Shown here piece by piece: positions 1,837-31,530 of a DNA stretch of 64,000 nucleotides. Numbering within the stretch: the first letter of the stretch is position 1; every line of letters starts with the position of its first letter. The stretch is from the NCBI GenBank assembly GCA_963965975.1, contig OZ014420.1, forward strand, positions 6,722,001 through 6,786,000, read 5' to 3'. The position numbers were made by a program, and so were the translations under genes. The stretch is from Xestospongia bergquistia. Lineage: Eukaryota > Porifera > Demospongiae > Haplosclerida > Petrosiidae. Under the pieces are notes generated by a model, which searched no databases, had not been told where the DNA came from, and was given only the letters and a program-made list of their open reading frames with translations.

Positions 1837-2955
1837 TTAGTAAAGATAGACTGTGTTACCAGGACTATCTGTAATCCACAGTGTTCCATTAGGAGCAATA
1901 AAAGCATCACTAGCACCTTTAAAACCCTTCATAACTTTGATTTGTTTGCCATTCTTATCACAGATATGAACTTTACCTGGGCCGTAACGATCACATAGAT
2001 ACATGTTATCATCACTGTCCACAAAAAGACCTTCAGCTGCATTCACACCTTCTATTTTTAATTTAGATAACACTGTTCCAGACTTACTAACCACGAAAAT
2101 TGTACCAGTTGGATAGTCAGGTATACGTATATTACCATCAGAATCAAACTGGATCTTACGAGGATTAGTACCTATGCCAGAAATTTCATAGGATTTGCTA
2201 CCATCTGGGTTATATACATGTATTTTTCCAGTATCTTCTTGAAAAAGTGCACATTGAGAGACATAGATCTTGTTATCAAAATCTACAGCAACTCCAACTG
2301 GTTGAGTTATGCTAAGTTTGTCTCCAATTAATTTTCCATCAGTTGTATATTCATAAATTTTACCAGCTGAATAGCTTGCAACATATATTCGATCACCTTT
2401 CCCACACACTCCTGTTAGAGTTGCAGTAGGAGTCTTGAATTTCTTTTGAAAGTTACCATCTTTATCAAATATATGAACATGACCATCTCCCCAAGCTGTG
2501 ATGAACACTTTTCCATCATTTGTTATGTATATGTTGAATGGTGCTGAGATGCTTGTTATTGTTTTCTTGGGATCTCCACTGCCTCCTGGTTGTTTGGTAT
2601 CGTCAGTACCACCTCCTGGTTGTTTGGTATCGCCAGTACCACCTCCTGGTTGTTTGGTATCGCCAGTACCACCTCCTGGTTGTTTGGTATCGTCAGTACC
2701 ACCTCCTGGTTGTTTGGTATCGCCAGTACCACCTCCTGGTTGTTTGGTATCGCCAGTACCACCTCCTGGTTGTTTGGTATCGCCAGTACCACCTCCTGGT
2801 TGTTTGGTATCATCAGTACCACCTCCAGACTTGCTTATATTTTTAACTTCTTTTATGAGTTCATCAATCTTCTCAGCCAGAGACTTAATCAAAGAGAATA
2901 GTTGCAGACTCATATACATACCACTACTAACTAATATGATCATTAAAATAAACAT
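1837..2955 (-). CDS. NHL-type beta-propeller protein, copy 2 (372 aa)
   Basis: Complete single-exon ORF of 372 aa. Residues 1-15 are hydrophobic (signal peptide or type II anchor), 17-43 form a short amphipathic or coiled-coil segment, and about 45-125 hold eight 10-residue GGGT(G/D)DTKQP repeats. About 130-372 form the propeller, with repeated D-G-K-V-F/D-x-D-G-N motifs roughly every 40-48 residues, ending VYLY. Unlike copies 1, 3 and 4, the repeat tract runs straight into the propeller (GGSGDPKKTI) without the NKNV...RDPATIG linker. The start at 2955 is chosen because copies 1 and 4 share the same Met and hydrophobic stretch. Role unknown; a secreted or surface recognition protein is inferred only from architecture. 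Confidence 0.85.
   Translation of the reverse strand: MFILMIILVSSGMYMSLQLFSLIKSLAEKIDELIKEVKNISKSGGGTDDTKQPGGGTGDTKQPGGGTGDTKQPGGGTGDTKQPGGGTDDTKQPGGGTGDTKQPGGGTGDTKQPGGGTDDTKQPGGSGDPKKTITSISAPFNIYITNDGKVFITAWGDGHVHIFDKDGNFQKKFKTPTATLTGVCGKGDRIYVASYSAGKIYEYTTDGKLIGDKLSITQPVGVAVDFDNKIYVSQCALFQEDTGKIHVYNPDGSKSYEISGIGTNPRKIQFDSDGNIRIPDYPTGTIFVVSKSGTVLSKLKIEGVNAAEGLFVDSDDNMYLCDRYGPGKVHICDKNGKQIKVMKGFKGASDAFIAPNGTLWITDSPGNTVYLY
2560..2830 (-). repeat. 30-bp coding minisatellite (8 units) in copy 2
   Basis: Eight tandem 30-bp units encode GGGT(G/D)DTKQP. Equivalent tracts have seven units in copy 1 (about 511-735), one in copy 3 (about 4721-4757) and three in copy 4 (about 6668-6770). Units differ mainly at one Gly/Asp codon. 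All length changes keep the frame because the unit is a multiple of three. Confidence 0.95.
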
Positions 2956-3345
2956 CTTTGTTGATTGGTGAGAATAAAGAAAAACAGATTATGATCTGAA
3001 CAAATGGAGCGAATGCTTTATATAACTTCGGATGTTTGTTTCCTACATGATCTGACCAATCAGATTGCACGTAGAAAGTCAAGGTATGTGTTTCTTTCCT
3101 TATGCCATTGTATGTGTGATATAGGATATAAAACTGTAGGTCTGTTTCCTTACTATAGCCTACTTTATTAATGTTATCACTTTGTTTTCCTACAGTGTTA
3201 ATTAGTCTTTGTTAACATGTACATGTGACACAGTTGTTGATGTAATCTTTATGGATCTAGCAAACTTGCCACATCATAAAGAGTACATTAATTTCCTATT
3301 ATCACAAATTGTGTTACTAGTTTATGTTCTATAATATCTAGTGTT

Positions 3346-3549
3346 TTGTATGTTATGACTAGCACATGTTATGATAAGCAGTGCCTGATAACTTTTATTC
3401 ACAGATATAGAGATCATCATGCTTATGTCTTCCATATATATACACACTTCTATCAAGAGCTATTATTAAGGCAGTTAGAAGATTTGGAAAAAATACACCT
3501 TTTCACATCTGCAGCTGAGTGGTATGACAATTTCATTGAATATTTTTAA
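3346..3549 (+). pseudogene. Exon-like plus-strand ORF repeated in each unit
   Basis: A 67-codon open frame whose best part begins right after a splice-acceptor-like sequence (tttattcacag at about 3398-3408). From there it encodes a segment with HHAYVFHIYTHFYQELL and ending EWYDNFIEYF, then a stop. The same block is at about 5330-5500 and 7330-7500, where an extra A in the run near TTGGAAAAAA shifts the frame, and in badly decayed form at about 1290-1450. It looks like the last exon of an unrelated gene caught in the duplicating unit. There is a faint, unproven resemblance to the C-terminal HxYxHF region of MOB proteins. Confidence 0.45.
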
Positions 3550-3627
3550 CTTTATTTGTAAATATAACTAAAGAAAAGATAATAAAAGAGTTAATATTTT
3601 TTACTTAAAATTATACTTGATCATGAG

Positions 3628-3740
3628 TTAGTAAAGATAAACTTTGTTACCAATAAAATCAGTAATCCAAACTGTTCCATCTATACCAATAGCAGCATCA
3701 CTAACACCAATAAAACCTGTAATAACTTTGATTGGTTTGA
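3628..3740 (-). pseudogene. 3'-end fragment of the 7577-8581 propeller gene, unit 2
   Basis: Same truncated match as in unit 1: the terminal codons and stop of the fifth propeller gene, ending at the same internal break point. The shared break point shows the fragment existed before the units were duplicated. Confidence 0.85.
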
Positions 3741-3925
3741 CATTGCTCTAATCTGTACTTACCATAGTGACTCAGTAAATGATTATTGTTTTACATCTCA
3801 AATGTGATCTACATTAATGTACACTGTTTACTGCTTTTGTGATTAATAGTTCAGTAGATTTTAAATTTATATAAACATTTATACTAAATTAATTATAAAG
3901 TGTAAATTATATCCTTCTGAAATTA

Positions 3926-4843
3926 TTAGTAAAGATAGACTGTGTCACCAGGATCTGCAATCCACAGTGTTCGATCAGGAGCAATAGAAGCATCACCACC
4001 ACCTTTAAAACCCTTCATAACTTTGATTTGATTTCCATACTTATCACAGATATGGACTTCACCTGTACTGCCATAAGTACATACATACATGTTATCATCA
4101 CTGTCCACATAAAGGCCTTCAGTAAAATTCACACCTTCTATTTTAAATTTAGATAACACTGTTCCAGACTTACTAACCACGAAAATTGTATTGGTTGGAT
4201 AGTCAGTTACACGTATATTACCATCAGAATCAAACTGGATCTTACGAGGATTAGTACCTATGCCAGATATTTCATAGGATTTGCTACCATCTGGGTTATA
4301 TAAATGTATTTTTCCAGTATCTCCATGAAAAAGTGCACATTGAGAGACATAGATCTTGTTATCAAAATCTACAGCAACTCCAACTGGTTGAGTTATGCTA
4401 AGTTTGTCTCCAATTAATTTTCCATCAGTTGTATATTCATAAATTTTACCACCTGAATAGCTTCCAACATATACTCGATCACCTTTCCCACACACTCCTG
4501 TTAGATCTGCAGTAGGAGGCTTGAATTTCTTTTGAAAGTTACCATCTTTATCAAATATATGAACATGACCATCTCCCCATCCTGTGATGAATACTTTTCC
4601 ATCATTTGTTATGTATATATGCAATGGTGTTGTAATGCCTGTTATTGTTTTCTTGGGATCTCCAATACTGGCTAGATCTCTACTATGAGGAGGCAGAGGA
4701 ACATTCTTATCATCAGTATCACCTCCTGGTTGTTTGGTATTGTCAGTACCACCTCCAGACTTACTTATATTTTTCACTTCTTTCACGAGTTCATCAATCT
4801 TCTCAGCCAGAGACTTAATCAAAGAGAATAGTTGCAGACTCAT
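3926..4843 (-). CDS. NHL-type beta-propeller protein, copy 3 (305 aa, N-terminal hydrophobic segment out of frame)
   Basis: Intact 305-aa ORF beginning MSLQLFSLIKS, which corresponds to residue 15 of copies 2 and 4. The codons for the hydrophobic N-terminus are present upstream (to about 4893), but a 2-bp length difference near 4844-4853 (catatatagacacc here, catatacatacc in the others) puts them out of frame. As it stands the protein starts at the coiled-coil segment with no signal peptide. Only one 10-residue repeat unit remains. The linker (NKNVPLPPHSRDLASIGD) and propeller are conserved and uninterrupted. It may be a recently crippled or cytosolic variant. Confidence 0.75.
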   Translation of the reverse strand: MSLQLFSLIKSLAEKIDELVKEVKNISKSGGGTDNTKQPGGDTDDKNVPLPPHSRDLASIGDPKKTITGITTPLHIYITNDGKVFITGWGDGHVHIFDKDGNFQKKFKPPTADLTGVCGKGDRVYVGSYSGGKIYEYTTDGKLIGDKLSITQPVGVAVDFDNKIYVSQCALFHGDTGKIHLYNPDGSKSYEISGIGTNPRKIQFDSDGNIRVTDYPTNTIFVVSKSGTVLSKFKIEGVNFTEGLYVDSDDNMYVCTYGSTGEVHICDKYGNQIKVMKGFKGGGDASIAPDRTLWIADPGDTVYLY

Positions 4844-4893
4844 ATATAGACACCACTACTAACTAATATGATCATTAAAATAAACATCTTTGT

Positions 4894-5874
4894 TGATTGG
4901 TGAGAATAAAGAAAAACAGATTATGATCTGAACAAATGGAGCGAATGCTTTATATAACTTTTGATGTTTGTCAATTTCCTACATGATCTGACCAATCAAA
5001 TTAAATATGGAAAGTCAACAGCATATGTGTTTCTTTCCGTATGCCACCATGTGTGTAATATAGGATAAAAAATACAACACTGTAGGTCTTTTTCCTTACT
5101 ATAGCACTACTTTATTAATGTTTTCACTTTGTTTTCCTACAGTGTTAATTAGTCTTTGTTAACATGTACATGTGCCGCAGTTGTTGATGTAATCTTTATG
5201 GATCTAGTAAACTTGTCACATTATAAAGAGTACATTAATTTCCTATTATCACAAATTGTGTTACTAGTTTATGTTCTATAATATCTAGTGTTTTGTATGT
5301 TATGACTAGCACATGTTATGATAAGAAGTACCTGATAACTTTTATTCACAGATATGGAGATCATCATGCTTATGTCTTCCATATGTATACACACTTCTAT
5401 CAAGAACTATTATTAAGGCAGTTAGAAGATTTGGAAAAAAATACACCTTTTCACATCTGCAGCTGAGTGGTATGACAATTTCATTGAATATTTTAAACTT
5501 TATTTGTAAATATAACTAAAGAAAAGATAATAAAAGAGTTAATATTTATTACTTAAAATTATACTTGATCATGAGTTAGTAAAAATAAACTTTGTTACCA
5601 ATAAAATCAGTAATCCAAACTGTTCCATCTATACCAATAGCAGCATCACTAACACCAATAAAACCTGTAATAACTTTGATTGGTTTGACATTGCTCTAAT
5701 CTGTACTTACCATAGTGACTCAGTAAATGATTATTGTTTTACATCTCAAATGTGATCTACATTAATGTACACTGTTTACTGCTTTTGTGATTAATAGTTA
5801 AGTAGATTTTAAATTTATATAAACATTTATAATAAAATTAATTATAAAGTGTAAATTATATCCTTCTGAAATTA
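4894..5874. other. Intergenic part of NHL-gene unit 3
   Basis: Repeats the earlier spacers. It holds the exon-like plus-strand block with a 1-nt frameshift (about 5330-5500) and the gene-5 3' fragment (about 5576-5688). No intact gene is visible. Confidence 0.6.
5576..5688 (-). pseudogene. 3'-end fragment of the 7577-8581 propeller gene, unit 3
   Basis: Third copy of the same truncated fragment with the same break point as at 1539-1650 and 3628-3740. One substitution changes a codon near the stop (gtaaaaataaac against gtaaagataaac). Confidence 0.85.
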
Positions 5875-6897
5875 TTAGTAAAGATAGACTGTGTCACCAT
5901 AATAGTCTGTAATCCACAGAGTTCCATCAGGAGCAATAAAAACATCACCATCACCTTTAAAACCCTTGATAACTTTGATTTGATTTCCATACTTATCACA
6001 GATATAGGCTTCACCTGTACCGCCATTTGTACGTACATACATGTTATCATCACTGTCCACATAAAGGCCTTCAGTTGTATTCACACCTTCTATTTTAAAT
6101 TTAGATAACACTGTTCCAGACTTACTAACCACGAAAATTGTACTGTTTGAATAGTCAGGTATACGTATATTACCATCAGAATCAAACTGGATCTTACGAG
6201 GATTAGTACCTATGCCAGATATTTCATAGGATTTGCTACCATCTGGGTTATATAAATGTATTTTTCCAGTATCTCCATGAAAAAGTGCACATTGAGAGAC
6301 ATAGATCTTGTTATCAAAATCTACAGCAACTCCAACTGGTTGAGTTATGCTAAGTTTGTCTCCAATTAATTTTCCATCAGTTGTATATTCATAAATTTTA
6401 CCACCTGAATAGCTTCCAACATATACTCGATCACCTTTCCCACACACTCCTGTTAGATCTGCAGTAGGAGTCTTGAATTTCTTTTGAAAGTTACCATCTT
6501 TATCAAATATATGAACATGGCCATCTCCCCATCCTGTGATGAACACTTTTCCATCATTTGTTATGTATATGTTGAATGGTGATGAAATGCCTGTTATTGT
6601 TTTCTTGGGATCTCCAATAGTAGCTGGATCTCGAGTATAAGGAGGCTGAGGAACATTCTTATTGTCAGTACCATTTCCTGGTTGTTTGGTATCGCCAGTA
6701 CCGCCTCCTGGTTTTTTGGTATCGCCAGTACCACCTCCTGGTTGTTTGGTATCATCAGTACCACCTCCAGACTTGCTTATATTTTTCACTTCTTTCATAA
6801 GTTCATCAATCTTCTCAGCAAGAGACTTAATCAAAGAGAATAGTTGCAGACTCATATACATACCACTACTAACTAATATGATCATTAAAATTAACAT
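5875..6897 (-). CDS. NHL-type beta-propeller protein, copy 4 (340 aa)
   Basis: Complete 340-aa single-exon ORF: hydrophobic N-terminus (MLILMIILVSSGMY), coiled-coil segment, three 10-residue repeats (one reading DTKKP), linker DNKNVPQPPYTRDPATIGD, and an intact propeller of NHL-like blades ending VYLY. The start at 6897 aligns exactly with copies 1 and 2. It differs from copy 3 mainly in repeat number and in having an in-frame N-terminus. Likely secreted or membrane-anchored; function unknown. Confidence 0.85.
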   Translation of the reverse strand: MLILMIILVSSGMYMSLQLFSLIKSLAEKIDELMKEVKNISKSGGGTDDTKQPGGGTGDTKKPGGGTGDTKQPGNGTDNKNVPQPPYTRDPATIGDPKKTITGISSPFNIYITNDGKVFITGWGDGHVHIFDKDGNFQKKFKTPTADLTGVCGKGDRVYVGSYSGGKIYEYTTDGKLIGDKLSITQPVGVAVDFDNKIYVSQCALFHGDTGKIHLYNPDGSKSYEISGIGTNPRKIQFDSDGNIRIPDYSNSTIFVVSKSGTVLSKFKIEGVNTTEGLYVDSDDNMYVRTNGGTGEAYICDKYGNQIKVIKGFKGDGDVFIAPDGTLWITDYYGDTVYLY

Positions 6898-7576
6898 CTT
6901 TGTTGATTGGTGAGAATAAAAAAAAACAGATTATGATCTGAACAAATGGAGCGAATGCTTAAAATAACTTTGGATGTTTGTCAATTTCCTACATGATCTG
7001 ACCAATCAAATTAAATATGGAAAGTCAACAGCATATGTGTTTCTTTCCGTATGCCACCATGTGTGTAATATAGGATAAAAAATACAACACTGTAGGTCTG
7101 TTTCCTTACTATAGCACTACTTTATTAATGTTTTCACTTTGTTTTCCTACAGTGTTAATTAGTCTTTGTTAACATGTACATGTGACACAGTTGTTTATGT
7201 GGATCTAGTAAACTTGTCACATTATAAAGAGTACATTAATTTCCTATTATCACAAATTGTGTTACTAGTTTATGTTCTATAATATCTAGTGTTTTGTATG
7301 TTATGACTAGCACATGTTATGATAAGAAGTACCTGATAACTTTTATTCACAGATATAGAGATCATCATGCTTATGTCTTCCATATGTATACACACTTCTA
7401 TCAAGAACTATTATTAAGGCAGTTAGAAGATTTGGAAAAAAATACACCTTTTCACATCTGCAGCTGAGTGGTATGACAATTTCATTGAATATTTTAAACT
7501 TTATTTGTAAATATAATTAAAGAAAAGATAATTAAAGAGTTAATATTTATTACTCAAAATTATACTTGATCATGAG
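6898..7576. other. Intergenic spacer with exon-like block, unit 4
   Basis: Contains the promoter-proximal block shared by all four copies and a frameshifted copy of the plus-strand exon-like block (about 7330-7500). Here the downstream gene-5 sequence is the full gene rather than a fragment, so this is probably the parental end of the array. Confidence 0.6.
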
Positions 7577-8581
7577 TTAGTAAAGATAAACTTTGTTACC
7601 AATAAAATCAGTAATCCAAACTGTTCCATCTATACCAATAGCAGCATCACTAACACCAACAAAACCTGTAATAACTTTGATTGGTTTACCATTTTTATCA
7701 CAGATATAAACTGCACTAGGACTCCCGCGATCAGCTATATACATATTATCCTCACAATCCACAAAAAGGCCTTCACCAAACTTTAAGCCATTGATTGCTA
7801 ACTGACACAAAGGAATTCCAGCCTTAGTAATGATGTGGACTCTATTATAATGGATAAGCACACGTAGATTGTCATTAGAATCAAACTGGATCTTACGAGG
7901 ATAAATTCCTATACTAGTAATCACATGAGATTTGTTACCATCAGAGTTATATACATGTATTGTTGCGGTACTCAATTCTGAGACATAGAATTTATTATCA
8001 GAGTCTACAGCAAGTCCACTGGGATTCATTTGGCTTATTTTTACACCAATGAAGTCTCCATCAGTTGTATACTCATATATTGTATTTGTTGTACTACAAA
8101 TAACATATAAATGTTTCTCTTTGACATACAATCCAGCTGGACTACTATTGGGAACACCAAATGTTTTTAGAAAATTACCGTTTTTATCAAACTTGTGAAT
8201 ATAACCATCTCCATATCCTGAGATGAATACATCACCATCATCAGTGATGTGGATACTCTTTGGTTGTGGAACGACTATTATTTTCTTTGGACAACCAATA
8301 GTGAATGGATCTCGTGTACAAGAGGTGTTCCTGGTACAAAATGAGGCTGCAGTTTTGTTCTTTATATGGTTTGTGAGTTCATCGATTTTCTGAGTCAGAC
8401 ATTGCACTTGAAAGAGTACTTGCTGACAGCAGTCTTCTTTAGAACAAGTACTGAGATCATTTAGTATAGCAGATACCATCCCATTGCTGCCAATAAGTAA
8501 TACAATTGTTAAAAAAACATACATTTTCTTCAACAATGTGAAAAAACATAGCTTCATTGAGTTATAAATGTCTTGATGCAT
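7577..8581 (-). CDS. NHL-type beta-propeller protein, divergent member (334 aa)
   Basis: Complete 334-aa ORF. It has an N-terminal hydrophobic stretch at about residues 20-42 (KKMYVFLTIVLLIGSNGMV); the second Met at the start of that stretch (position about 20) may be the real start, giving a normal signal peptide. A Cys-rich segment with C-x4-DCC and further Cys residues follows, then a short heptad region and a propeller with the same blade motifs as copies 1-4. There is no GGGTGDTKQP tract; a C-T-R-N-T-S-C-T-R-D linker takes its place. Its 3' end is the source of the three dead fragments upstream. Likely a secreted propeller; function unknown. Confidence 0.8.
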   Translation of the reverse strand: MHQDIYNSMKLCFFTLLKKMYVFLTIVLLIGSNGMVSAILNDLSTCSKEDCCQQVLFQVQCLTQKIDELTNHIKNKTAASFCTRNTSCTRDPFTIGCPKKIIVVPQPKSIHITDDGDVFISGYGDGYIHKFDKNGNFLKTFGVPNSSPAGLYVKEKHLYVICSTTNTIYEYTTDGDFIGVKISQMNPSGLAVDSDNKFYVSELSTATIHVYNSDGNKSHVITSIGIYPRKIQFDSNDNLRVLIHYNRVHIITKAGIPLCQLAINGLKFGEGLFVDCEDNMYIADRGSPSAVYICDKNGKPIKVITGFVGVSDAAIGIDGTVWITDFIGNKVYLY

Positions 8582-9119
8582 TGGGTGTGAAAATGACTAC
8601 ATCATTTAAACAATGCATGTCCAATTTTTCCATTAATTACCATTATAATAATTTATTATTACAAATTGTCTTGTTCTAATCATGTATTCAATTGACACAC
8701 CAAATGTTCATAAGTGATGTGATAACATTTAATTACTTGAGAGGATACTGGTGACGTAATTGACATATACTGCCATTAATTGATGTATAGTGATAAATAA
8801 GTGCATTGTAATAGAACTCATAGACTCATAGTATTTATTGTTATAATGTACTTCAAATTATATACTTCAAGAGTACTAATATCAACATTAACAATTTAAT
8901 TGTGAATTATGGTATCTTTTATGTAGAAAAATTTAGTATTGATAGTAACATAACAATGTCATTATCCTAAATTTTAACCCTTCCTAAACCATAAACAATA
9001 TGTATTTCTATTTATGATTACTTGTTTCCATGGCCAAAACTTTTGAACATCAGAACATAATTGTTAAGACTATGTTACAAACTTAAATTACATTTTCTTG
9101 TTCAAAGTATATAGTTAAT
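8582..9119. other. AT-rich intergenic region
   Basis: About 540 bp of AT-rich sequence. I see no coding region, RNA gene or repeat I can name. It presumably holds the promoter of the gene ending at 8581. Confidence 0.5.
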
Positions 9120-9578
9120 TTATGCATACATTGCATTAAAGTCTGCTTCACTGCTATCTTCTTCAGTCTGGAAGTAATTACGTGAATGGCGATAGTGGGG
9201 ACGATGATGGCGGGAATGGGAACGGTGATGGTAGCGATCTGATGGTGGTTCATATGGTGGGAACACATCAGGTGATGGTTCTGATGGTGGGAACACACCA
9301 GGTGATGGTTCTGATGGTGGGAACACACCAGGCGGTGATGGTTCTGATGGTAGTGAAGTAGACTCAGAACATTTCACTATTTCTTTTTTGAGTTCTTTGA
9401 TTTCTTTTTTAATTTCTTTAACTTTCTCTTCCAGTAGCATATTCATCTCTTTATTAAATGCATCAACTTGACACAGAGCTTGAAGACATAACTCATCTGA
9501 TTCAGATGCTGCACTAGTCATAATGATCAATGTACCAAAGATTAAAGTGAAAATATTGACAGCAACATACATCTTCAA
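9120..9578 (-). CDS. Secreted-type protein with shared N-terminus and Pro/His-rich tail (152 aa)
   Basis: Complete 152-aa ORF. Residues 1-25 form a clear signal peptide (MKMYVAVNIFTLIFGTLIIMTSAAS). About 30-70 is a coiled coil rich in E-K heptads. About 75-115 contains three or four repeats of the SEPSPGVFPP type, and the tail is His/Arg-rich (YHHRSHSRHHRPHYRHSRNYF) then acidic. The first 50 or so residues and the 5' flank are nearly identical to the gene at 10640-11689, but the propeller is absent. His clusters could bind metal or mineral; that is only a guess from composition. Confidence 0.7.
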   Translation of the reverse strand: MKMYVAVNIFTLIFGTLIIMTSAASESDELCLQALCQVDAFNKEMNMLLEEKVKEIKKEIKELKKEIVKCSESTSLPSEPSPPGVFPPSEPSPGVFPPSEPSPDVFPPYEPPSDRYHHRSHSRHHRPHYRHSRNYFQTEEDSSEADFNAMYA

Positions 9579-10639
9579 GACTGAAAATAGAAACCAACAA
9601 ATGAAATAATTCAGTAGTGATCTAGCACATCATACACATTATGATATAATGGTTTTATAGAATAATGGTATTGAGAAAAGAGAAGTGTAAACAACAAAAG
9701 TACTGAACTGAAAAGGTGAGAAAGACAGCAACACAAAGAGGAAGAAGAGGAAAGAAGTAGAGCATTAATACATATCTCATGTCTTTTCCTCATATAGCAG
9801 ATGATATCAAACAAGGATCTAATGTCACTTTCCTTCTTCTCCTTTAATTACTTAATCAATTACATTACATTATGTTCTGAAGTAAATGACTGTAATACAT
9901 GTATACTTAATCTTTACATTTTTTGTCTTGCTATGAAGGTACATAGAGAAATAATAGACTATTATAGAAAGTGTCATATTCTTTAATAAAGATAATTACC
10001 ACATATTTAAAAACTGTGCATAAATCACATTAAACTCTCACCATGTGCTCAAAAATTTTAAGCCATGATAATAATTTTATATCTATAACCTATTATATTG
10101 TTTGTTGCTCTTTGATAGTGGAACAGTTGTTAGTTTATTTGGACAAACTAATACTATAATTGTGTTCTCTATTTGATCTTTTTGAGCTAGACACTTCATG
10201 TTGAGAGTATTTAAGTGTCGATAATCTTTGTTAGAAGAACAAATGCCAAGATCAGTCATCATAGTAGATACATTTTATATCCATAGATACGTATCCCATT
10301 GTCATCAAAAATAATATAATTATTAAAATAAATATAATTATATTTTTCTTTATAGTGATTTGTGCAAATGATGAAAATAAGGTTATAAATTGAGTTATTA
10401 ATATTAGGGGCTACATAATTAAATATTGTACATTTCATGTTGTGTTAAGTATTAAGTTCATTTTATAGTGACAGTTTCAAATTACATTGTCTGTGAGTGA
10501 TGTGAATTATGTTACAAATTATCTTGGTAATATTACAAACTGGTGTTAATAATAATTTAAATGGATTGTTATATTATGCTTGCATTATATAATGTAGAGT
10601 TCAAATTATTTGGTAATTATTGTTATTATAATGAACAAA
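9579..10639. other. Intergenic region with duplicated 5' flank
   Basis: About 9580-9800 is nearly identical to 11690-11920, the 5' flank of the next gene, showing the two genes were duplicated with their promoters. The rest is AT-rich and contains the degenerate fragment at about 10100-10330. Confidence 0.7.
10100..10330 (-). pseudogene. Decayed N-terminal fragment of a 7577-type propeller gene
   Basis: On the minus strand a degenerate stretch reads like the N-terminal segment of the 334-aa gene (TDLGICSSNKDYRHLNTL then MKCLAQKDQIEN, against LNDLSTCSKEDCC then VQCLTQKIDEL). It is preceded by decayed hydrophobic sequence. No propeller follows and frames are broken. I interpret it as a dead relative. 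Confidence 0.55.
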
Positions 10640-11689
10640 TCAATAAAGCTTTACTTCACTAGCATCAACAACCCAAACTGTTCCATCTGATGTCACAGTT
10701 ACATCTTTAGGATTTTTAAGATGCTCAATACTATTAACTTCATTACCATTCTTGTCTCTGATGCGAACTTTATAGCCTTCTATATAAAGGTCAATGGAAC
10801 TGTCAGTCAAGTACACATTATTCTGACTGTCTACAAATAATCCCATGCAATATCCATCATCACCGAAATAATCATATATGTCAATGTTCTTAACCAGCTC
10901 TCCAGACTTGGTTAGGACATGAATGTTACAATCCTCCTTCCTTAACACACAAAGATTACCATCAGAATCAAACTTGATAGCTGGAGTATGATTATTGATA
11001 TCAGTTTTTATTGTACGAGATTTGCTCCCATCTTGATGAAAAATTCCAATTGTGGGACGTCCTTCTGCAGATTCTTGTAATGCATATAGTGTACCATCAG
11101 AGTCTATAACAATTCCGCCGATAAAATGTTCTTTGTAGTCTTTTGTTCCGACCAGTTCTCCTTCACTTGTATACTCAAAGACTTTACCTTCATCAGTAGC
11201 AATGAATGTGTGATCTGCTGAATAAAGTCCTTTTGCATGTTTATCTCCTGGGATTGTAAACTCCTTTTTATGGTTGCCACTTTTATCGAGGATGTAGACA
11301 TGACTATGAGATGTACCTGCAACAAAAACCATTCCATCATTTGTACTATCAATAAGGTCCGGTTCATTGTCAAAACCATTTATGACTTTCTTTGGATCTC
11401 CAATGGTACTTGGATTTCTTACTCGAGGCTTCTTTTCTGCTCCTCTTCCAGATGGTAAGGATGGTTGTGATGGTGGGGATGGTTGTGAAGTGGATTTGGA
11501 ATTTTTTGCTATTTCCTTCTTGAGCTCTTCAATTTTCTCTTCCAGTAGCCCCTTTATCTCTTTGTTAAATGCATCAACTTGACACAGAGCTTGAAGACAT
11601 AACTCATCTGATTCAGATGCTGCACTAGTCACAATGATCAATGTACCAAAGATTAAAGTGAAAATATTGACAGCAACATACATCTTCAA
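10640..11689 (-). CDS. NHL-type beta-propeller protein with signal peptide (349 aa)
   Basis: Complete 349-aa ORF. It has the same signal peptide and Cys-Leu-Gln-Ala-Leu-Cys coiled-coil start as the 152-aa neighbour, a short SQPSPPSQPS linker, then RNPSTIGDPKKVING and a propeller with blades such as YILDKSGNHKKEF, YEYTSEGELVG and VLTKSGELVKN, ending VWVVDASEVKLY. The propeller is clearly homologous to copies 1-4 but distant. Predicted secreted. It sits at the 5' end of the family array, and its promoter region is shared with the 9120-9578 gene. Confidence 0.8.
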   Translation of the reverse strand: MKMYVAVNIFTLIFGTLIIVTSAASESDELCLQALCQVDAFNKEIKGLLEEKIEELKKEIAKNSKSTSQPSPPSQPSLPSGRGAEKKPRVRNPSTIGDPKKVINGFDNEPDLIDSTNDGMVFVAGTSHSHVYILDKSGNHKKEFTIPGDKHAKGLYSADHTFIATDEGKVFEYTSEGELVGTKDYKEHFIGGIVIDSDGTLYALQESAEGRPTIGIFHQDGSKSRTIKTDINNHTPAIKFDSDGNLCVLRKEDCNIHVLTKSGELVKNIDIYDYFGDDGYCMGLFVDSQNNVYLTDSSIDLYIEGYKVRIRDKNGNEVNSIEHLKNPKDVTVTSDGTVWVVDASEVKLY

Positions 11690-17779: not shown

Positions 17780-18731
17780 ATGAGAGGACATTTTCGTTCT
17801 ATATTTCATTATTTCTCTTCGTCTGTTGCAAAGTCTACAAGTCCTTTGGCCGTCTTACGTCAAAAGACTGGTTACCCAATATCCAAATGTAAAGAAGCAT
17901 TGATCAAACATGACAACGATATCACAGCTTCAGAACTGTGGCTGCAAAAGCAAGCACAGAAAGAAGGTTGGGCTAAAGTGGAGAAATTTAAGGGACGTGC
18001 CACACGACATGGAGTTATTAGTGCTGTTGTACGAGATAATTATGCAACCATGATAGAGGTACTGGACTATGAATATCATTAATTGTTATGTTCTAAATCT
18101 CCTATATTCATAGGTGAATTGTGAGACTGATTTTGTTGCTAAAAATCAAGATTTTCTTCATTTTGTATCTCAAACCACTGAAGCAATACTTAATCATTTG
18201 AAGCTCCACCCACTGCCTACTTCCTCTGTCAGTCCATTATCAATTCAACATGTAACACACCAATCCTTAATAACCATGGTAACTGTCTCTGATAAACATG
18301 GCTCCTTAGGTGATTTAACGGCTGAAAATATTGGTCGTTTTGGAGAGAACATTTCTTTTTCTCGTGCATGTTTAATGTCCACAAGTACAGGTCTTGTTAG
18401 TACCTACATTTATAACAAAACAGTTCTTCCTGGCTCTGATATTGCCATGGGAAAATATGGCTCTCTTGTTCACTTAAAATTAGCCAACAGCAAAAATTTT
18501 AACTCTTTAGAAGCCAATGAGATCGGTCGTAAACTAGGTCAGCATATTGTAGGGATGAATCCTCAGTGTCTTGAACAAGTTGTTAACGACGAAGGTGTGG
18601 CATGTGAAGATGATTCTAAAGCTCTACTTCAACAGACTTTTCTCATAGATAATAATGTTACAGTTGGAGAATGGCTCAAATCATATGACATCAGTGTGAC
18701 TGATTTTATTCGTTATGGAGTTGGTGAATGA
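17780..18731 (+). CDS. TSFM: Mitochondrial elongation factor Ts
   Basis: Two exons, 17780-18058 and 18114-18731, joined by a 55-nt intron (GAG|gtactg...tcatag|GTG), give about 298 aa. After a mitochondrial-type presequence (MRGHFRSIFHYFSSSVAKS) come the EF-Ts N-terminal UBA-like signature (LRQKTGYPISKCKEAL), DITASELWLQKQAQKEGWAK, and across the splice junction the NCETDFVAKN motif typical of the family. EF-Ts is the nucleotide exchange factor that recycles EF-Tu in mitochondrial translation. Length and motifs fit an intact gene. Confidence 0.95.
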
Positions 18732-19335: not shown

Positions 19336-20297
19336 ATGATACCCAGTGTTTGTAAGTGTACTACTGTCAATTTATTATAATATATTAGTCATCATACAAT
19401 GACACATTAGTGGACATCATAAAAGCCAGTTATATCTGTAACCTTTTTGCCCCATCATTATACTGGAATATATATAACACCATCTTTAATTTGTAAAATC
19501 GTCTGTATATTATGTATTAGACGCTCACTATGATAAATGTGCTGATAAAATTGACGACTTATGGGACTTTGTTCTGGAAGGATATGCAGACACTGCAATC
19601 AAATATCTTGATCTAAAACCAACCAGTAAATTGGCTGATATTGGAGGAGGTACTGGTGCAGTAGCTGAAATAATCAGTAGAAAAGCAGGTTAGCTAGCAC
19701 TCACAGACTATAGATATTGAACATCTTCATTCAGGTCTTGAGACTCCAGTGTGTGTGGTTGAACCAGTTCAGAAGATGCTTGTTCAAGCAACCAATCGAC
19801 ATGGTGTAAAGCCAGTCTTAGCAACATGTTCAGAGTTTTATAAAAATCCAACTTATCAAGCAAGTCAATATGACAAGGTACTATTCTGTGCTTCTATCCA
19901 TCATATTCCTGATCAACTGGCGACACTCAGAATGGTTTATGACTGCATGCCTACTGGAGGAGTTTGCTTAGCTATCAAATGTGGTGACAAAATCACTTTA
20001 CCATTATGGCAGTCTGCTAAGGCTGCTTATGATACCAATACTGATTGTAGTTATAACTTTGAACAGGTTTTTGGTGCAGTCCATAAAACTACTGAGTCCA
20101 TTTTTTTCACAACAAAGAAAAGTGTCTGGTTTGCTAAGTTGCGTGGAAGAATATTTTCATATTTTGAAAGTTTGTCTGATGAAGAAATAGAGAAAGGAAT
20201 TGTTGAGTTAGAAGAAAAGGAGTTTAAAGGAATCAAAGACGATGATGAACTGAATCTTGAATATCAAATTAGTTGTTGTACAGCTGTTAAAATATGA
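19336..20297 (+). CDS. SAM-dependent methyltransferase, copy A (248 aa)
   Basis: Three exons: 19336-19351 (only MIPSV plus one base), 19521-19688 and 19735-20297. The second intron is 46 nt (GCAG|gttagc...cattcag|GT). Without splicing it there is an in-frame TAG and a frame change; with it the protein is continuous. The class I methyltransferase fold is shown by motif I (LADIGGGTG), the acidic-residue strand (VCVVEP), a SIHHxPD post-II segment and MPTGGVCL. The C-terminal half has DEEIEKGIVELEE. The substrate is unknown. Copy A is the most divergent member of the local family. Confidence 0.8.
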
Positions 20298-21511
20298 GCA
20301 TTTTTATAAGCAGCCATGTCATATAATAATACAAATGAAAGTTGTATTATTAATTTTATTTAATTATATATGTGTATGAGTTCTATGATTTTAATTATAA
20401 TATTTATTAATTTTGCAACTATATAGATCTATATAGTTCTAGAAGTTTGTGGGTATAGTGTGCAATTTATTTAATATTAATATTTGAATGTTGACTCATC
20501 AGATGATATCATTGCATAATAAAATAAATACTGAGGAGCTAATGTATGTGAGTACAAATGTGACTGACTCCCACTTCTAATATATCTATGCTGCAATAAT
20601 TTAATGACGGATTTTTGTCTCATGAAAAATGATGATATCGAGGGTTTGTAATTAATGTTTAAATTTTCTATAAATATATATTGATTAAAATAATTATATT
20701 CTATATTCCTTTGATCTTGTTTTTGGTGTAATACACAAAACAACAGAGTCCTTTTTCTTCACGAATAAAGAAAAGTGCTTGGATTGCAAAGTTCTGTCAG
20801 ATTAAGTAATTAAGAAAGGAATTGTTGACTTAGAAGAAACAGAGTTTAAAGGAATTGACAACGAAGATGAGCTAAATCTTGAATATCAAGTTATCTGTTA
20901 TAGAGCTATTCAATAAAATGTGAGAATTTTAAAGGGAAAATAACAATTACAACTATTTTTGTTTTTTTCTAATTTCAGTTTTACAAAAAAATAATAGAGA
21001 ATAAATTATAGTTATATCATGTTAACTAATTAATTTTGATATTAACACTTAAAATATAAAACTTTATAAAAATGCACCTCTTCAAGTGAATCTGTAGTCT
21101 ACAATAAGTTGTCATCTTCCTGATCAACTAGCTGTTTTAAAATTATGTATGACTATGTACCTGCTGTTGAATAAAATGGTCTAATAATGATATCTTTAAC
21201 CTGACACAGTTATAACGTTATAATCAAATGAAGGAAGACTACAAACACAATATATGTTGATACCTTTGATCAAGTTTTTGATACAGTAAATAATGTTGAG
21301 CAGCTTTTATGTATGTACTACGAAGTAATCAAATCATTAGATCTAGAAGTTTAAATTAAAGAAGTCTACATACTATTCAGCCAATATTAATACACAGAAC
21401 CTCAGTCTGTAATATACGTAAAAATCTATATGTGTGTAGTATATAGGACTTAATCATGTGACTTCCTTCCTTCCGATATAATTGCATTTTTTTGTCTCCC
21501 AGCTGACAACA
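20298..21511. other. Spacer with methyltransferase debris
   Basis: AT-rich spacer containing a 3'-end fragment of another copy (20715-20916) and a second, more decayed piece at about 21108-21175, which resembles the HLPDQLATLKM...CMPTGG region. No intact gene is visible. Confidence 0.6.
20715..20916 (+). pseudogene. Methyltransferase 3'-end fragment
   Basis: About 200 bp match the last exon of copies B-F from the FGAVHKTTESFFF region to the stop. It has an internal deletion (removing the ...RIFSNFEEMSDEE... part) and frameshifts. No upstream exons. It is a dead copy. Confidence 0.85.
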
Positions 21512-22526
21512 ATGATGTCCAGTGTTTGTAAGTGTTAAATCCTCTTGTATATAGTAATTATAAGATTATATATATATATATATATATAGACTAGGAAAAT
21601 ACCATGTTGGCCCATGCCAAGGTTTAGAACCAGTTAATGTTAATTTCCATTGAAGTATGCTACTTGTTTTCAGCACTATAGTCACAACCTATAACAGTAT
21701 ACCACAATAAAAATTAATATAATATATTCATCTTATTATTATACTAGATACTCATTATGACAAACATGCTGATCAATATGATGACTTGTGTGATTGTATT
21801 CATGAAGGATTTACAGATATAGCAATCAAATACCTTGATCTTAAACCTACTGATAAATTGGCTGATATTGGAGGAGGTACTGGTACAGTAGCTGAAATGA
21901 TTAGTAAGAGAACAGGTGAGGAGTTACAGTCTTGTTTTTTTGATGTTGATATTAAACATCTTCATTCAGGTCTTCAGACTCTGGTATGTGTGGTTGAACC
22001 AGTGGAGAAGTTGCTTGTTCAAGCAACCAATCGACATGGTGTAAAGCCAGTCTTAGCAACATGTTCAGAGTTTTATAAAAATCCAACTTATCAAGCAAAT
22101 CAATACAACAAAGTACTGTTCTGTGGTTCTATCCATCATCTTCCTGATCAATTGGCTACACTCAAAATGGTTTACAACTGCATGCCTACTGGAGGAATTT
22201 GTCTAGTGATCAGAAGTAGTAGCACAACTCTACCATTATGGAAGAAGGCTAAAACTACCTTTGATCCTAATCCTGAATATATTCAAGCCTTTGAACAAGT
22301 TTTTGGTGCAATACACAAAACAACAGAGTCCTTTTTCTTCACCATAAAGAAAAGTGCTTGGATTGCAAAGCTACGATGTAGAATATTTTCTAATTTCGAA
22401 GAGATGTCAGATGAAGAAATTGAGAAAGGAATTGTTGAGTTAGAAGAAGCAGAGTTTAAAGGAATTGACAACGAAGATGAGCTGAATCTTGAATATCAAG
22501 TTATGTGTTATAGAGCTATTAGATAG
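21512..22526 (+). CDS. SAM-dependent methyltransferase, copy B (246 aa when spliced)
   Basis: Exons 21512-21527 (MMSSV plus one base), 21748-21915 and 21970-22526. The second intron, 21916-21969 (gtgagg...cattcag), is 54 nt and has no stop, so the region can also be read through as 18 extra residues. Splicing brings motif I (DIGGGTG) and VCVVEP to normal class I methyltransferase spacing, so I prefer the spliced form. Downstream motifs are SIHHLPDQLATL, MPTGGICLVI and DEEIEKGIVELEE. Reading frame intact. Substrate unknown. Confidence 0.8.
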
Positions 22527-23009: not shown

Positions 23010-23640
23010 CAGGATTGGGGTCAATTACATTAGAATGATTACAATTACAGTGATTACATAAGATGAATACAATTATAATTATGTTACATGTGAATAACTT
23101 GAATCAATAACAGTGTAACAATCAGTAAACAGTTTTAAAATTGTCCAAATTGCTTCATCCTTTCATCATTTCTCTTCACAAACTCCTTGGCTATTGAAAG
23201 TAAATTGAGATTATTGGTGTAGTTGTTGTGTATATGCAAAAGTAAACAATTGTTTAAGTGGCTTTGAGTCATTGAAGAACACAAGTAAGTGTATAGTCGT
23301 TTAAGAGCGGAAAATGACCTCTCAGATGTGGATGAAGAGATAGGTACTGTTAAGAACAAACGAATGAAGTTGTGTACTGCTGGAAGCATCCCTTTATATG
23401 TAATGTTGTTGTTTATAGCATTGCAAATAGTTTGTACTGAAGTGACTTTCTTAATGGAGGGAATTTCCTTCTGTATTACATCATACAGAAGAGGCAATTG
23501 ACAAGACAAATCAGATGCATCAACATTCTTTCCAAAGCAAGACTGTTGAAAATGTTCTAAATCATCCTGAAAGTCTTGCTTATTTGCAGCTTTAATTAGT
23601 GTCTGCTCCATGCAGAGTACCACTGGAACATGTTGATTTT
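23010..23640 (-). mobile_element. Truncated hAT transposon, element 3
   Basis: The left end begins CAGGATTGGGG at 23010 after the 8-bp sequence ctacttga. The transposase remnant (23135-23623, minus) carries the hAT C-terminal dimerisation signature (TVPISSSTSERSFSALKRL...MTQSHLNNCLLLHIH). The transposase N-terminus and the right terminal repeat are absent; the sequence jumps straight into the 3' flank of methyltransferase copy D. It is non-autonomous and dead. Elements 1 and 2 (26564-26942, 27055-28508) are relatives at the same ancestral site. Confidence 0.8.
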
Positions 23641-23821
23641 AGACTACCAATTAACTTGTAGTTTGATGACCTACATTATAAAGCTTTATGTTTTAAATGT
23701 TAATATAAAACAATAATATGACTATAATTTATTTCTATTTTTTATCTAAAACTCAAATAAAAGAAAACAAAAATAGTTCCAATTGTTAATTTCCTTAAAA
23801 ATTCTCACATTTTATCGAATA

Positions 23822-25046
23822 GCTCTATAACAGATAACTTGATATTCAAGATTTAGCTCATCTTCATTGTCAATTCCTTTAAACTCTGTTTCTTCTAACT
23901 CAAGAATTCCTTTCTCAATTTCTTCATCTGACATCTCTTCGAAATTAGAAAATATTCTACGTACATCGTAGCTTTGCAATCCAAGCACTTTTCTTTATGG
24001 TGAAGAAAAAGGACTCTTTTGTTTTGTGTACTGCACCAAAAACTTGTTCAAAGGCTTGAATATATTCAGGATTGGGATCAAAGGTAGTTTTAGCCTTCTT
24101 CCATAATGGTAGAGTGGTGTTACCACTTGTGATCATTAGACAAACTCCTCCAGTAGGCATGCAATTGTAAATCATTTTGAGTGTAGCCAATTGATCAGGA
24201 AGATGATGGATAGAACCACAGAACAGTACTTTGTTGTATTGATTTGCTTGATAAGTTGGATTTTTATAAAACTCTGAACATGTTGCTAAGACTGGCTTTA
24301 CACCATGTCGATTGGTTGCTTGAACAAGCATCTTCTCCACTGGTTCAACCACACACACTGGAGTCTGAAGACCTGAATGTAGATGTTCAATATCAACATC
24401 AAAAAAACAAGACTGTAACTCCTCACCTGTTCTCTTACTAATCATTTCAGCTACTGTACCAGTACCTCCTCCAATATCAGCCAATTTATCAGTAGGTTTA
24501 AGATCAAGATATTTGATTGCTATATCTGTAAATCCTTCATGAATACAATCATGCAAGTCATCATATTGATCAGCACATTTGTTATAATGAGCATCTAGTA
24601 TAATAAGATGAATATATTATATTAATTTTATTGTGGTATACTGTTCTAGATTGTGCTGAAAACAAATAGCATACTTCAATGGAAATTAACATTGACTGAT
24701 CAACATGGTATTTCTTCCCACTATACATACATATATATATATATATTATGTCTGATGATCACATAACGCGTGAAACTCGGAGTAACATGTACAGCAACAA
24801 AGCGAGAGCTCTGCTCTTTTGTCCTTCAATTCTGTTCTAACCTGCTCTGTCTAAACGATATTAAGCACTCTTCAACAGACTTAGATACTTTAGTATATAT
24901 ATATTACATATATATATACACAATATAGGATGTATATATGTATAATCTTATATTACTATAATCATTATAATTATAATAAATTTATACATAACATTTCAAA
25001 AGTATATACGAGAACATGAAACTTACTTACATACGCTGGGTATCAT
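23822..25046 (-). pseudogene. SAM-dependent methyltransferase copy D, frameshifted
   Basis: Exons 25046-25031 (MIPSV plus one base), 24594-24427 and 24372 downward. The second intron is 54 nt and open. A 4-bp insertion (gtac, about 23961-23964) relative to copies B, C, E and F shifts the frame just after IAKLRC and gives an immediate stop, losing the last 60 or so residues. The lost part is still recognisable down to about 23822. The methyltransferase core motifs remain, so a truncated protein is possible, but I call it a probable recent pseudogene. It is head-to-head with copy C. Confidence 0.75.
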
Positions 25047-25257
25047 CGTCGTTAGAGATATATATCGCGAGGTAGATAATTATTAGAGGTGAGGGGTGTG
25101 TCTAATATAAATCCTAAACCCTAAACTCAGTCAACAGTCAGTCTGTAACAACAGACGGTTATTGTATAATAATAATAAAAATTTATGGGTGGGACTTATA
25201 GTATAACACCAACCACGCTCTCAATTATCTACCTCGCGATATATATCTCTAATGACG
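25047..25257. promoter_or_regulatory. Shared head-to-head promoter of methyltransferase copies D and C
   Basis: 211 bp between two divergent start codons. The first exons and about 40 bp of upstream sequence form an inverted repeat (arms about 25029-25085 and 25221-25277, including tacctcgcgatatatatctc). The unique centre contains ataaaaatttatgggtggg. A bidirectional promoter is inferred. The F/E pair has the same structure at about 30268-30480. Confidence 0.65.
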
Positions 25258-26352
25258 ATGATACCCAGCGTATGTAAGTTATATGTTCTCGTATATACTT
25301 TTGAAATATTATGTATTAATTTATTATAATTATAATGATTATAGTAATATAAGACTATACATATTATATTATATATAATTATATATATATATATATGTAT
25401 GTATGTATGTATATAGTGGGAAGAAATACCATGTTGGCCCATGCCAAGGTTTAGAACCAGTTAATGTTAATTTCCATTGAAGTATGCTACTTGTTTTCAG
25501 CACTGTAGTCACAACCTATAACAGTATACCACAATAAAATTAATATAATATATTCATCTTATTATTATACTAGATGCTCATTATAACAAATGTGCTGATC
25601 AATATGATGACTTGTATGATTGTATTCATGAAGGATTTACAGATATAGCAATCAAATACCTTGATCTTAAACCTACTGATAAATTGGCTGATATTGGAGG
25701 AGGTACTGGTACAGTAGCTGAAATGATTAGTAAGAGAACAGGTTAGGAGTTACAGTCTTGTTTTTTTGATGTTGATATTGAACATCTTCATTCAGGTCTT
25801 CAGACTCCAGTGTGTGTGGTTGAACCAGTGGAGAAGTTGCTTGTTCAAGCAGGAAATCGACATGGTGTAAAGCCAGTCTTAGCAACATGTTCAGAGTTTT
25901 ATAAAAATCCAACTCATCAAGCAAATCAATACAACAAAATACTGTTCTGTGCTTCTATCCATCATCTTTCTGATCAATTGGCTACACTCAAAATGGTTTA
26001 CAATTGCATGCCTACTAGAGGAGTTTGTCTAGTGATCACAAGTAGTAACACCACTCTACCATTATGGAAGAAGGTTAAAACCACCTTTGATCCCAATCCT
26101 GAATATATTCAAGCCTTTGAACAAGTTTTTGGTGCAGTACACAAAACAAAAGAGTCCTTTTTCTTCACCATAAAGAAAAGTGCTTGGATTGCAAAGCTAC
26201 GATGTAGAATATTTTCTAATTTCGAAGAGATGTCAGATGAAGAAATTGAGAAAGGAATTCTTGAGTTAGAAGAAACAGAGTTTAAAGGAATAGACAACGA
26301 AGATGAGCTAAATCTTGAATATCAAGTTATCTGTTATAAAGCTATTCGATAA
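25258..26352 (+). CDS. SAM-dependent methyltransferase, copy C (246 aa when spliced)
   Basis: Exons 25258-25273, 25574-25741 and 25796-26352. The 54-nt second intron begins gttagg, so an unspliced reading meets TAG at once; splicing restores T-G-L-Q-T-P-V-C-V-V-E-P in frame. Core motifs are as in copy B except that MPTGG reads MPTRG (Gly to Arg), which may matter because this loop follows a core strand. An in-frame ATG at 25252 could add two residues. Substrate unknown. Confidence 0.75.
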
Positions 26353-28955: not shown

Positions 28956-29920
28956 TTATCGAATAGCTTTATAGCAGATAACTTGATATTCAAGATTTAG
29001 CTCATCTTCGTTGTCAATTCCTTTAAACTCTGTTTCTTCTAACTCAACAATTCCTTTCTCAATTTCTTCATCTGACATCTCTTCAAAATTAGAAAATATT
29101 CTACATCGTAGCTTTGCAATCCAAGCACTTTTCTTTATGGTGAAGAAAAAGGACTCTGTTGTTTTGTGTACTGCACCAAAAACTTGTTCAAAGGCTTGAA
29201 TATATTCAGGATTAGGATCAAAGGTGGTTTTAGCTTTCTTCCATAATGGTAGAGTGGTGTTACCACTTGTGATCATTAGACAAACTCCTCCAGTAGGCAT
29301 GCAATTGTAAATCATTCTGAGTGTAGCCAATTGATCAGGAAGATGATGGATAGAAGCACAGAACAGTACTTTGTTGTATTGATTTGCTTGATAAGTTGGA
29401 TTTTTATAAAACTCTGAACATGTTGCTAAGACTGGCTTTACACCATGTCGATTGGTTGCTTGAACAAGCAACTTCTCCACTGGTTCAACCACACATACTG
29501 GAGTCTGAAGACCTGAATGTAGATGATCAATATCAACATCAAAAAAACAAGACTGTAAGTCCTCACCTGTTCTCTTACTAATCATTTCAGCTACTGCACC
29601 AGTACCTCCTCCAATATCAGCCAATTTATCAGTAGGTTTAAGATCAAGGTATTTGATTGCTATATCTGTAAATCCTTCATGAATACAATCATACAAGTCA
29701 TCATATTGATCAGCACGTTTGTCATAATGAGCATCTAGTATAATAATAAGATGAATATATTATATTAACATTTATTGTGGTATACTGTTCTAGGTTGTGT
29801 ATACAGTGCTGAAAACAAATATCATACTTCAAAGGAAATTAACATTAACTGATCAACATGGTATTTCTTCCCACTACAACACACACACACACACACATTA
29901 TATATATATTATATATATAT

Positions 29921-29983
<63 letters not shown>

Positions 29984-30267
29984 CTGATGATCACATAACG
30001 TGTGAAACTCGGAGTAACATGTACAGCAACAAAGCAAGAGCTCAGTTCTTTTGTCCTTCAATTCTGTTCTAACCCGCTCTGTCTAAACGATATCAAGCAC
30101 TCTTCAACAGACTTAGATACTTTAGTATATATATATATATATACACAATATAGTATGTATATATGTATAATCTTATATTACTATAATCATTATAATTATA
30201 ATAAATTTATACATAACATTTCAAAAGTATATACGAGAACATTTAACTTACATACGCTGGGTATCAT
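28956..30267 (-). CDS. SAM-dependent methyltransferase, copy F (246 aa when spliced)
   Basis: Exons 30267-30252 (MIPSV plus one base), 29734-29567 and 29512-28956. The second intron, 29513-29566, is 54 nt and open (gtgagg...cattcag), so an unspliced ORF of 246 codons starting within exon 2 is also visible. Motifs: LADIGGGTGAV, VCVVEP, ASIHHLPDQLATL, MPTGGVCLMI, DEEIEKGIVELEE. All exons are intact. The long first intron (517 nt) holds (AC)n and (AT)n microsatellites. It is head-to-head with the broken copy E and convergent with copy C. Confidence 0.8.
29879..29979. repeat. (AC)n/(AT)n microsatellite in copy F intron 1
   Basis: A run of AC dinucleotides followed by about 80 bp of nearly pure AT dinucleotides. 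Its counterpart in copy E is at about 30551-30608. ORFs spanning it are artefacts. Confidence 0.95.
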
Positions 30268-30552
30268 CGTCGTTAGAGATATATATCGCGAGGTAGATAA
30301 TTATTAGAAGTGAGGGGTGTGTCTAATATAAATCCTAAACCTTAAACTCAGTCAACAGTCAGTCTGTAACAACAGACGGTTATTGTATAATAATAATATT
30401 ATATGTAAAAATTTGTGGGTGGGACTTATAGTAGAACAACTACGCCCTCAATTATCTACCTCGCGATATATATCTCGTATATACTTTTGAAATATTATGT
30501 ATAAATTTATTATAATTATATAATGATTATAGTAATATAAGATTATACATAT

Positions 30553-30746: not shown

Positions 30747-31530
30747 ATGCTCATTATAACAAATGTGCTGATCAATATGATGACTTGTATGATTGTATTC
30801 ATGAAGGATTTACAGATATAGCAATCAAATACCTTGATCTTAAACCTACTGATAAATTAGCTGATATTGGAGGAGGTACTGGTACAGTAGCTGAAATGAT
30901 TAGTAAGAAAACAGGTTAGGAGTTACAGTCTTGTTTTTTTTTGATGTTGATATTAAACATCTTCATTCAGGTCTTGAGACTCTGGTATGTGTAGTTGAAC
31001 CAGTGGAGAAGATGCTTGTTCAAGCAACCAATTGACATGGTGTAAAGCCAGTCTTAGCAACATGTTCAGAGTTTTATAAAAATCCAACTTATCAAGCAAG
31101 TCAATACAACAAAGTACTGTTCTGTGCTTCTATCCATCATCTTCCTGATCAATTGGCTACACTCAAAATGATTTACAATTGCATGCCTACTGGAGGAGTT
31201 TGTCTAGTGATCTCAAGTAGTAGCACCACTCTACCATTATGGAAGAAGGTTAAAACCACCTTTAATCCTAATCCTATATATATTCAAGCCTTGGAAAAAA
31301 TTTTTGGTGCAGTACACAAAACAACAGAGTCCTTTTTCTTCACCATAAAGAAAAGTGCTTGGATTGCAAAGCTACGATGTAGAATATTTTCTAATTTTAA
31401 AGAGATGTCAGATGAAGAAATTGAGAAAGGAATTCTTGAGTTAGAAGAAACAGAGTTTAAAGGAATTGACAACGAAGATGAGCTGAATCTTGAATATCAA
31501 GTTATGTGTTATAGAGCTATTAAAATGTGA
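30747..31530 (+). pseudogene. SAM-dependent methyltransferase copy E, broken
   Basis: Exon 2 (30747-30914) and exon 3 (30971-31530) with a 56-nt intron between them. Compared with copy C, the region holding the start-codon exon is deleted: at about 30474-30480 the flank jumps from atatatctc straight to gtatatac, with a TCTC direct repeat at the deletion ends in copy C. In exon 3 a CGA codon has become TGA (31033-31035, the Arg after QATN). Both changes argue for a pseudogene. The intron still has good splice sites. Confidence 0.85.

Follow-up and report, generated by a model that had tools for sequence, protein, structure and literature searches.

A probable short phase 1 intron that is stop-free in three of six clustered copies of a predicted methyltransferase gene

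Gene cluster and surroundings

Six copies (A to F) of one methyltransferase gene are located between 19.3 and 31.5 kb of the window, i.e., the whole stretch of 64,000 nucleotides that was analysed. Copies A, B, C and E are on the plus strand, D and F on the minus strand (Table 1). A 16-nt exon 1 was assigned to copies A, B, C, D and F; a search allowing up to five edits did not find it upstream of copy E. Motif I lies within exon 2 of all six copies, and exon 3 starts in each with GL(E/Q)T and continues through VCVVEP. Two copies are damaged in exon 3, D by a frameshift and E by a TGA codon. Of the copies without such damage, A and C carry a stop in the segment between exons 2 and 3 and have an otherwise uninterrupted frame from exon 1 to the end, while this segment is open in B and F.

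Copies C and D are arranged head to head, with exon 1 regions that resemble each other in inverted orientation (window 24990-25290). The junction of F and E (30250-30500) has a similar inverted arrangement, in which the exon 1 of E seems to have been lost. A decayed exon 3 fragment of the same methyltransferase, containing stops, was present between copies A and B (20683-20913), and contig C11 holds, at about 6.871 Mb (L020, L023), another exon 3 piece of this family that is broken and contains several stops. Amid the methyltransferase copies lies a C-terminal piece of a hAT transposase (Pfam Dimer_Tnp_hAT; 23135-23623, minus strand), and a stretch near 27150 reads similarly to this piece. Related beta-propeller-like open reading frames occupy 1837-11689 on the minus strand, some with GGGTGDTKQP repeats; two of them were scanned, both matched Pfam SGL and one also NHL.

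Table 1 Exons and second introns of the six methyltransferase copies in the window
Feature	Position	Strand	Remarks
Copy A exon 1	19336..19351	+	MIPSV and first base of Y; in-frame junction with exon 2
Copy A exon 2	19521..19688	+	motif I DIGGGTG
Copy A intron 2 (putative)	19689..19734	+	46 nt, GTTAG...CATTCAG; if retained, stop at codon 2 and frameshift
Copy A exon 3	19735..20297	+	VCVVEP through stop
Copy B exon 1	21512..21527	+	match; exact bases taken off the sequence
Copy B exon 2	21748..21915	+	
Copy B intron 2 (putative)	21916..21969	+	54 nt, GTGAG, open in frame
Copy B exon 3	21970..22526	+	
Copy C exon 1	25258..25273	+	match; exact bases taken off the sequence
Copy C exon 2	25574..25741	+	
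Copy C intron 2 (putative)	25742..25795	+	54 nt, GTTAG, TAG is codon 2
Copy C exon 3	25796..26352	+	
Copy D exon 1	25031..25046	-	match; exact bases taken off the sequence
Copy D exon 2	24427..24594	-	
Copy D intron 2 (putative)	24373..24426	-	54 nt, GTGAG, open in frame
Copy D exon 3	23815..24372	-	frameshifted
Copy E exon 2	30747..30914	+	no exon 1 located upstream
Copy E intron 2 (putative)	30915..30970	+	56 nt, GTTAG; if retained, TAG at codon 2 and frameshift
Copy E exon 3	30971..31530	+	interrupted by TGA
Copy F exon 1	30252..30267	-	match; exact bases taken off the sequence
Copy F exon 2	29567..29734	-	
Copy F intron 2 (putative)	29513..29566	-	54 nt, GTGAG, open in frame
Copy F exon 3	28956..29512	-	

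Protein family and structural models

The copies A to F are predicted to encode class I SAM-dependent methyltransferases. The spliced protein of copy A scored above the cut-offs of four Pfam families: Methyltransf_23 (38.2 bits, cut-off 27), Methyltransf_12 (34.4, cut-off 30), Methyltransf_11 (31.8, cut-off 21.2) and Methyltransf_25 (31.1, cut-off 27). The protein of copy B with the segment retained, a different copy and a query without its first residues, reached 29.7 bits with Methyltransf_23, compared to 38.2 bits for spliced A. An AlphaFold2 model of this retained form kept the Rossmann-type methyltransferase fold around the insert with a mean pLDDT of 86 and a pTM of 0.84. The insert comprised residues 57-74 of the model, between the motif I helix and the following strand, and pLDDT values below 50 were confined to residues 60-74 within it. 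This low confidence is weak evidence for disorder and partly built in, because only two of ten alignment rows carried the insert. The model of a prokaryotic relative (L027, mean pLDDT 92.5) had a short loop at the same site, between a helix (52-61) and a strand (65-69). Together, the two models place the insert in a loop that might tolerate 18 residues.

Among the best 50 PDB matches of the retained form, most were named methyltransferases, e.g., OxaG, HvrF and human histamine methyltransferase. Motif I, the order of Rossmann-type strands and helices and the PDB fold are shared with the known class I enzymes (Pfam Methyltransf_23/11/12/25), but the identity to retained B among the matches listed was only 11-19 %, with TM-scores of about 0.45-0.66 by query length.

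The segment between motif I and VCVVEP

The segment that separates exons 2 and 3 is 46 nt long in A, 54 nt in B, C, D and F, and 56 nt in E. It starts with GTTAG in A, C and E and with GTGAG in B, D and F, and ends with CATTCAG|GT in six of six copies. Its removal keeps one frame over the junction in all six. The original prediction had described such a segment with these starts, lengths and this restoration of a common frame, and every copy agreed with that description. Retention would introduce in-frame stops at codons 2 and 11 in A and at codon 2 in C and E, and none in B, D and F. It had further been proposed that the T/G difference at donor position +3 is the sole determinant of the consequence of retention. 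This holds for C against B, D and F, but not for A and E: their segments, with 46 nt and 56 nt, also shift the frame, and a further stop follows in A, hence the single base decides only between C and B, D and F.

An open frame over this length is not remarkable by itself, since 25 % of 20,000 shuffles of 54 nt with the composition of the copy B segment were stop-free.

Paralogues and prokaryotic relatives

Searching the whole genome (146 Mb, 21 contigs) at the protein level yielded 23 matches, including four further copies, P1 to P4, on contig C13 with 31-47 % identity by piece; the identity to copy A was 38 % for P2 and 35 % for P4. These divergent paralogues form two similar pairs at 5.42-5.45 Mb of the contig (L024, L025) and share the intron position of the window copies. 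Their segments of 45, 45, 60 and 57 nt also run from GT to AG and interrupt the same codon in the same phase as in the window copies, and all four contain in-frame stops. Thus, a GT...AG segment was present at an identical site and phase in ten of ten copies, and each is in frame across the junction once the segment is removed. A length divisible by three together with a stop-free frame occurred in only three of the ten, in B, D and F, but not in A, C, E and P1 to P4. Judged by eye, the segment sequences of P1/P2 and P3/P4 resemble neither each other nor those of the window copies.

A scan of prokaryotic genomes revealed eight relatives with 25-31 % identity in the best segments. In an alignment of 17 proteins, none of the eight had the 18 residues. 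The distance from motif I to the EP/DP motif, counted on this alignment, was one residue shorter than in spliced A for six relatives and three residues shorter for two; with the segment removed, the spacing between DIGGGTG and VCVVEP pointed out in the original prediction agrees with that of the eight relatives to within one to three residues. From the insert-free prokaryotic proteins and the comparison of the paralogues, the most parsimonious view is that the ancestral protein corresponds to the spliced form and that the segment is an extra. An old gene transfer of the family is possible, with the note that relatives outside this genome were sought in prokaryotes only. A study of horizontal transfer in Amphimedon queenslandica lists methyltransferase among the common domains of its candidates (PMC4784904).

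Comparison with other introns and donor sites

Control introns were inferred from chaperonin (PF00118) and proteasome (PF00227) genes of the genome, and not from transcripts. For chaperonin, 40 of 50 matches were used, and 22 introns were obtained for 28 exon pairs; for the proteasome, 16 of 23 matches gave 4 introns from 7 exon pairs. Nine of the 35 pairs were dropped due to a missing candidate, a near tie or a score below 2.5. The score rewarded the consensus at positions -2, -1, +4, +5 and +6 and at the acceptor, position +3 was not scored. The 26 introns had a median length of 55 nt, with 15 in the range of 44-60 nt. Five had a length that is a multiple of three, and none of the 26 was open in frame, so that openness is not the norm in this genome. 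A gap of 55 nt at 18059-18113 in the adjacent EF-Ts gene (Pfam EF_TS) fits, as read from the sequence, this pattern of short introns.

For A. queenslandica, median intron lengths of 81 bp genome-wide and 68 bp in ribosomal protein genes are reported, the shortest of the latter measuring 37 bp (PMC3412847). In the genome studied here, a reading of 37 bp is possible for the first RPS21 intron, equal to the published A. queenslandica length, but the second RPS27 intron comes out at about 270 bp compared to a published 2263 bp (PMC3412847). By its short introns the genome, a eukaryotic one, is sponge-like and probably that of a sponge. The segment resembles the short GT-AG introns of this demosponge in length class and ends. 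Its G+C content is below that of the exons in nine of the ten copies, as in short demosponge introns, and equal to it in copy A. We see no difference in principle between the two.

At +3, 17 of the control introns had A, 6 had G, 2 had C and 1 had T. T was present at this position in three of six window copies (Fisher p 0.015 against 1 of 26, with copies that are not independent). Predicted duplexes with the 5' end of U1, from which the host's own may differ, had energies of -12.1 kcal/mol for the GTGAG donors and of -7.3 and -8.1 kcal/mol for the GTTAG donors, the latter being weaker by 4.0 to 4.8 kcal/mol. The copies that could tolerate retention pair better with U1 and hence should be the least retained. 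Other donors of the genome gave -4.2 (P1/P2), -5.7 (EF-Ts) and -7.5 kcal/mol (P3) by the same measure.

Divergence of the segment and the exons

Between A and the copies B, C, D and F, the segment differed at 15-18 of 46 sites, in addition to a gap of 8 nt. The exons had about 50-53 differences at 150 synonymous sites and 67-78 at 565 nonsynonymous sites. The change in the segment was not different from the synonymous change (Fisher p 0.72-0.86) and exceeded the nonsynonymous change (Fisher p 8e-6 to 0.002); these tests cover the pairs of A with B, C, D and F, with E left out, and are not independent, as all share A. Between A and these four copies the segment diverges in a neutral-like manner, as an intron does. 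The dN/dS ratios of A to each of the other five copies were 0.27-0.33, and the exons were thus under constraint over the span between A and the others.

Constraint on the recent copies B to F is itself weak: dN/dS of their exons ranged from 0.32 to 1.09, with both values above 1 involving the damaged copy E. The segment has 1-5 differences per 54 sites among them, too few for a test of constraint. The segments of B, D and F differ at four bases, three of these changing a residue and one silent. The splits among B to F conflict in a tree of the copies, and the copies cannot be ordered; this suggests exchange between them, as by recombination or gene conversion. The T/G state is mixed on the gene tree and clusters no more than in shuffles. 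With the conflicting patterns in B to F, nothing indicates that the difference has been maintained.

Discussion

The segment is very probably an ordinary short phase 1 GT-AG spliceosomal intron, common to the ten copies examined. This identification, made already in the original prediction, gained support from the site and phase in the paralogues, the relatives lacking an insert, a divergence like that of synonymous sites, and a length and splice sites typical of the genome. We infer from the sequences that it is indeed spliced. Splicing would link the helix after motif I straight to the strand bearing VCVVEP, and a single phase 1 intron would have been inherited by all ten copies of the family. 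The stop-free state of 54 nt in B, D and F is best explained by chance, with the T or G at +3 as the one deciding base of an otherwise open segment. A retention in B or F would place 18 residues in a loop and would probably be splicing noise that evades nonsense-mediated decay.

That B, D and F hold a genuine coding insertion which is never spliced, with A, C and E as pseudogenes, is almost certainly wrong: the frame is open in three copies, but four paralogues have segments with in-frame stops at the identical site and phase, the insert is absent in eight of eight prokaryotic relatives, and A and C are otherwise open throughout, with dN/dS of 0.27-0.33 between A and the others. A regulated use of the open frames, in which B and F, and formerly D, regularly retain the intron and so form a second functional enzyme, with A and C limited to one form, is very unlikely. 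Open frames in multiples of three, the fold of retained B preserved around its insert (mean pLDDT 86) and the absence of open introns among the 26 controls, by which three open copies are at least not the norm, speak for it, as does the report of intron retention as the commonest alternative splicing event in A. queenslandica, with 45 % (PMC4432959). At this level some retained reads would be expected in a host that belongs or is related to this species. Against such a use, neither the four paralogues nor the eight prokaryotic relatives have an equivalent of the insert, three of the four bases that vary between the segments of B, D and F alter a residue, chance alone opens 25 % of segments of this length and composition, and copy D is frameshifted further on. 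The better U1 match of the open copies (-12.1 versus -7.3 and -8.1 kcal/mol) predicts less retention. The two protein forms that had been suggested for some copies received no positive support, and several findings speak against them: the insert is unconserved and varies in its residues, the open copies have the stronger predicted donor and one of them, D, has a broken exon 3. The places proposed for testing covered five copies and lacked copy E. A version in which the donor base acts as a switch, swapped by gene conversion, between copies with one enzyme and B and F with a second enzyme carrying the 18-residue loop, is highly improbable.

Compatible with an ordinary intron, but unlikely, is a role of the donor in expression: the weak GTTAG donor of A and C would lead to retention, an early stop and a lower output via nonsense-mediated decay, and the GTGAG copies would be spliced more fully. 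The excess of T at +3 (three of six copies versus 1 of 26 controls, p 0.015) and a U1 duplex predicted to be weaker by 4.0 to 4.8 kcal/mol are in line with this role. Yet donors as weak or weaker occur elsewhere in the genome, in P1/P2 (-4.2), the EF-Ts gene (-5.7) and P3 (-7.5), and the T/G state departs from the gene tree, among copies B to F with conflicting site patterns.

Taken as an ordinary intron, the segment can be compared with known classes. Stop-free introns with a length in multiples of three escape nonsense-mediated decay and are reported to be selected against in intron-rich eukaryotes (PMC11334263), and a deficit of introns with such lengths is described for ciliates (PMC5014332). 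The introns of B, D and F, likewise stop-free in frame at 54 nt, resemble these translatable introns (PMC11334263; PMC5014332), but those of A, C, E and the four paralogues on contig C13 do not, and the open state is a minority within the family. Among named classes, exitrons (PMC4484396) come closest to the idea of two forms. The segment of B, D and F shares with them a length divisible by three, the lack of a stop and a coding capacity if kept. In the description of PMC4484396, exitrons are defined by alternative splicing observed in transcripts within annotated coding exons, whereas the segment is known here from sequence comparison and appears as an inherited ordinary intron. A narrow literature search for methyltransferases of sponges such as Amphimedon, tandem copies and retained introns, all taken together, found no paper.

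The segment is ordinary biology, and its value is that of a warning for annotation. Automated gene prediction could carry the intron of B, D and F into the protein as 18 coding residues, or cut A, C and E short, and in this way create spurious differences among copies of the same gene. Were retention real and regulated, the cluster would offer a natural experiment on how the outcome for a retained intron depends on single donor bases, in an animal group in which retention is reported as the commonest alternative splicing event of one species (PMC4432959).
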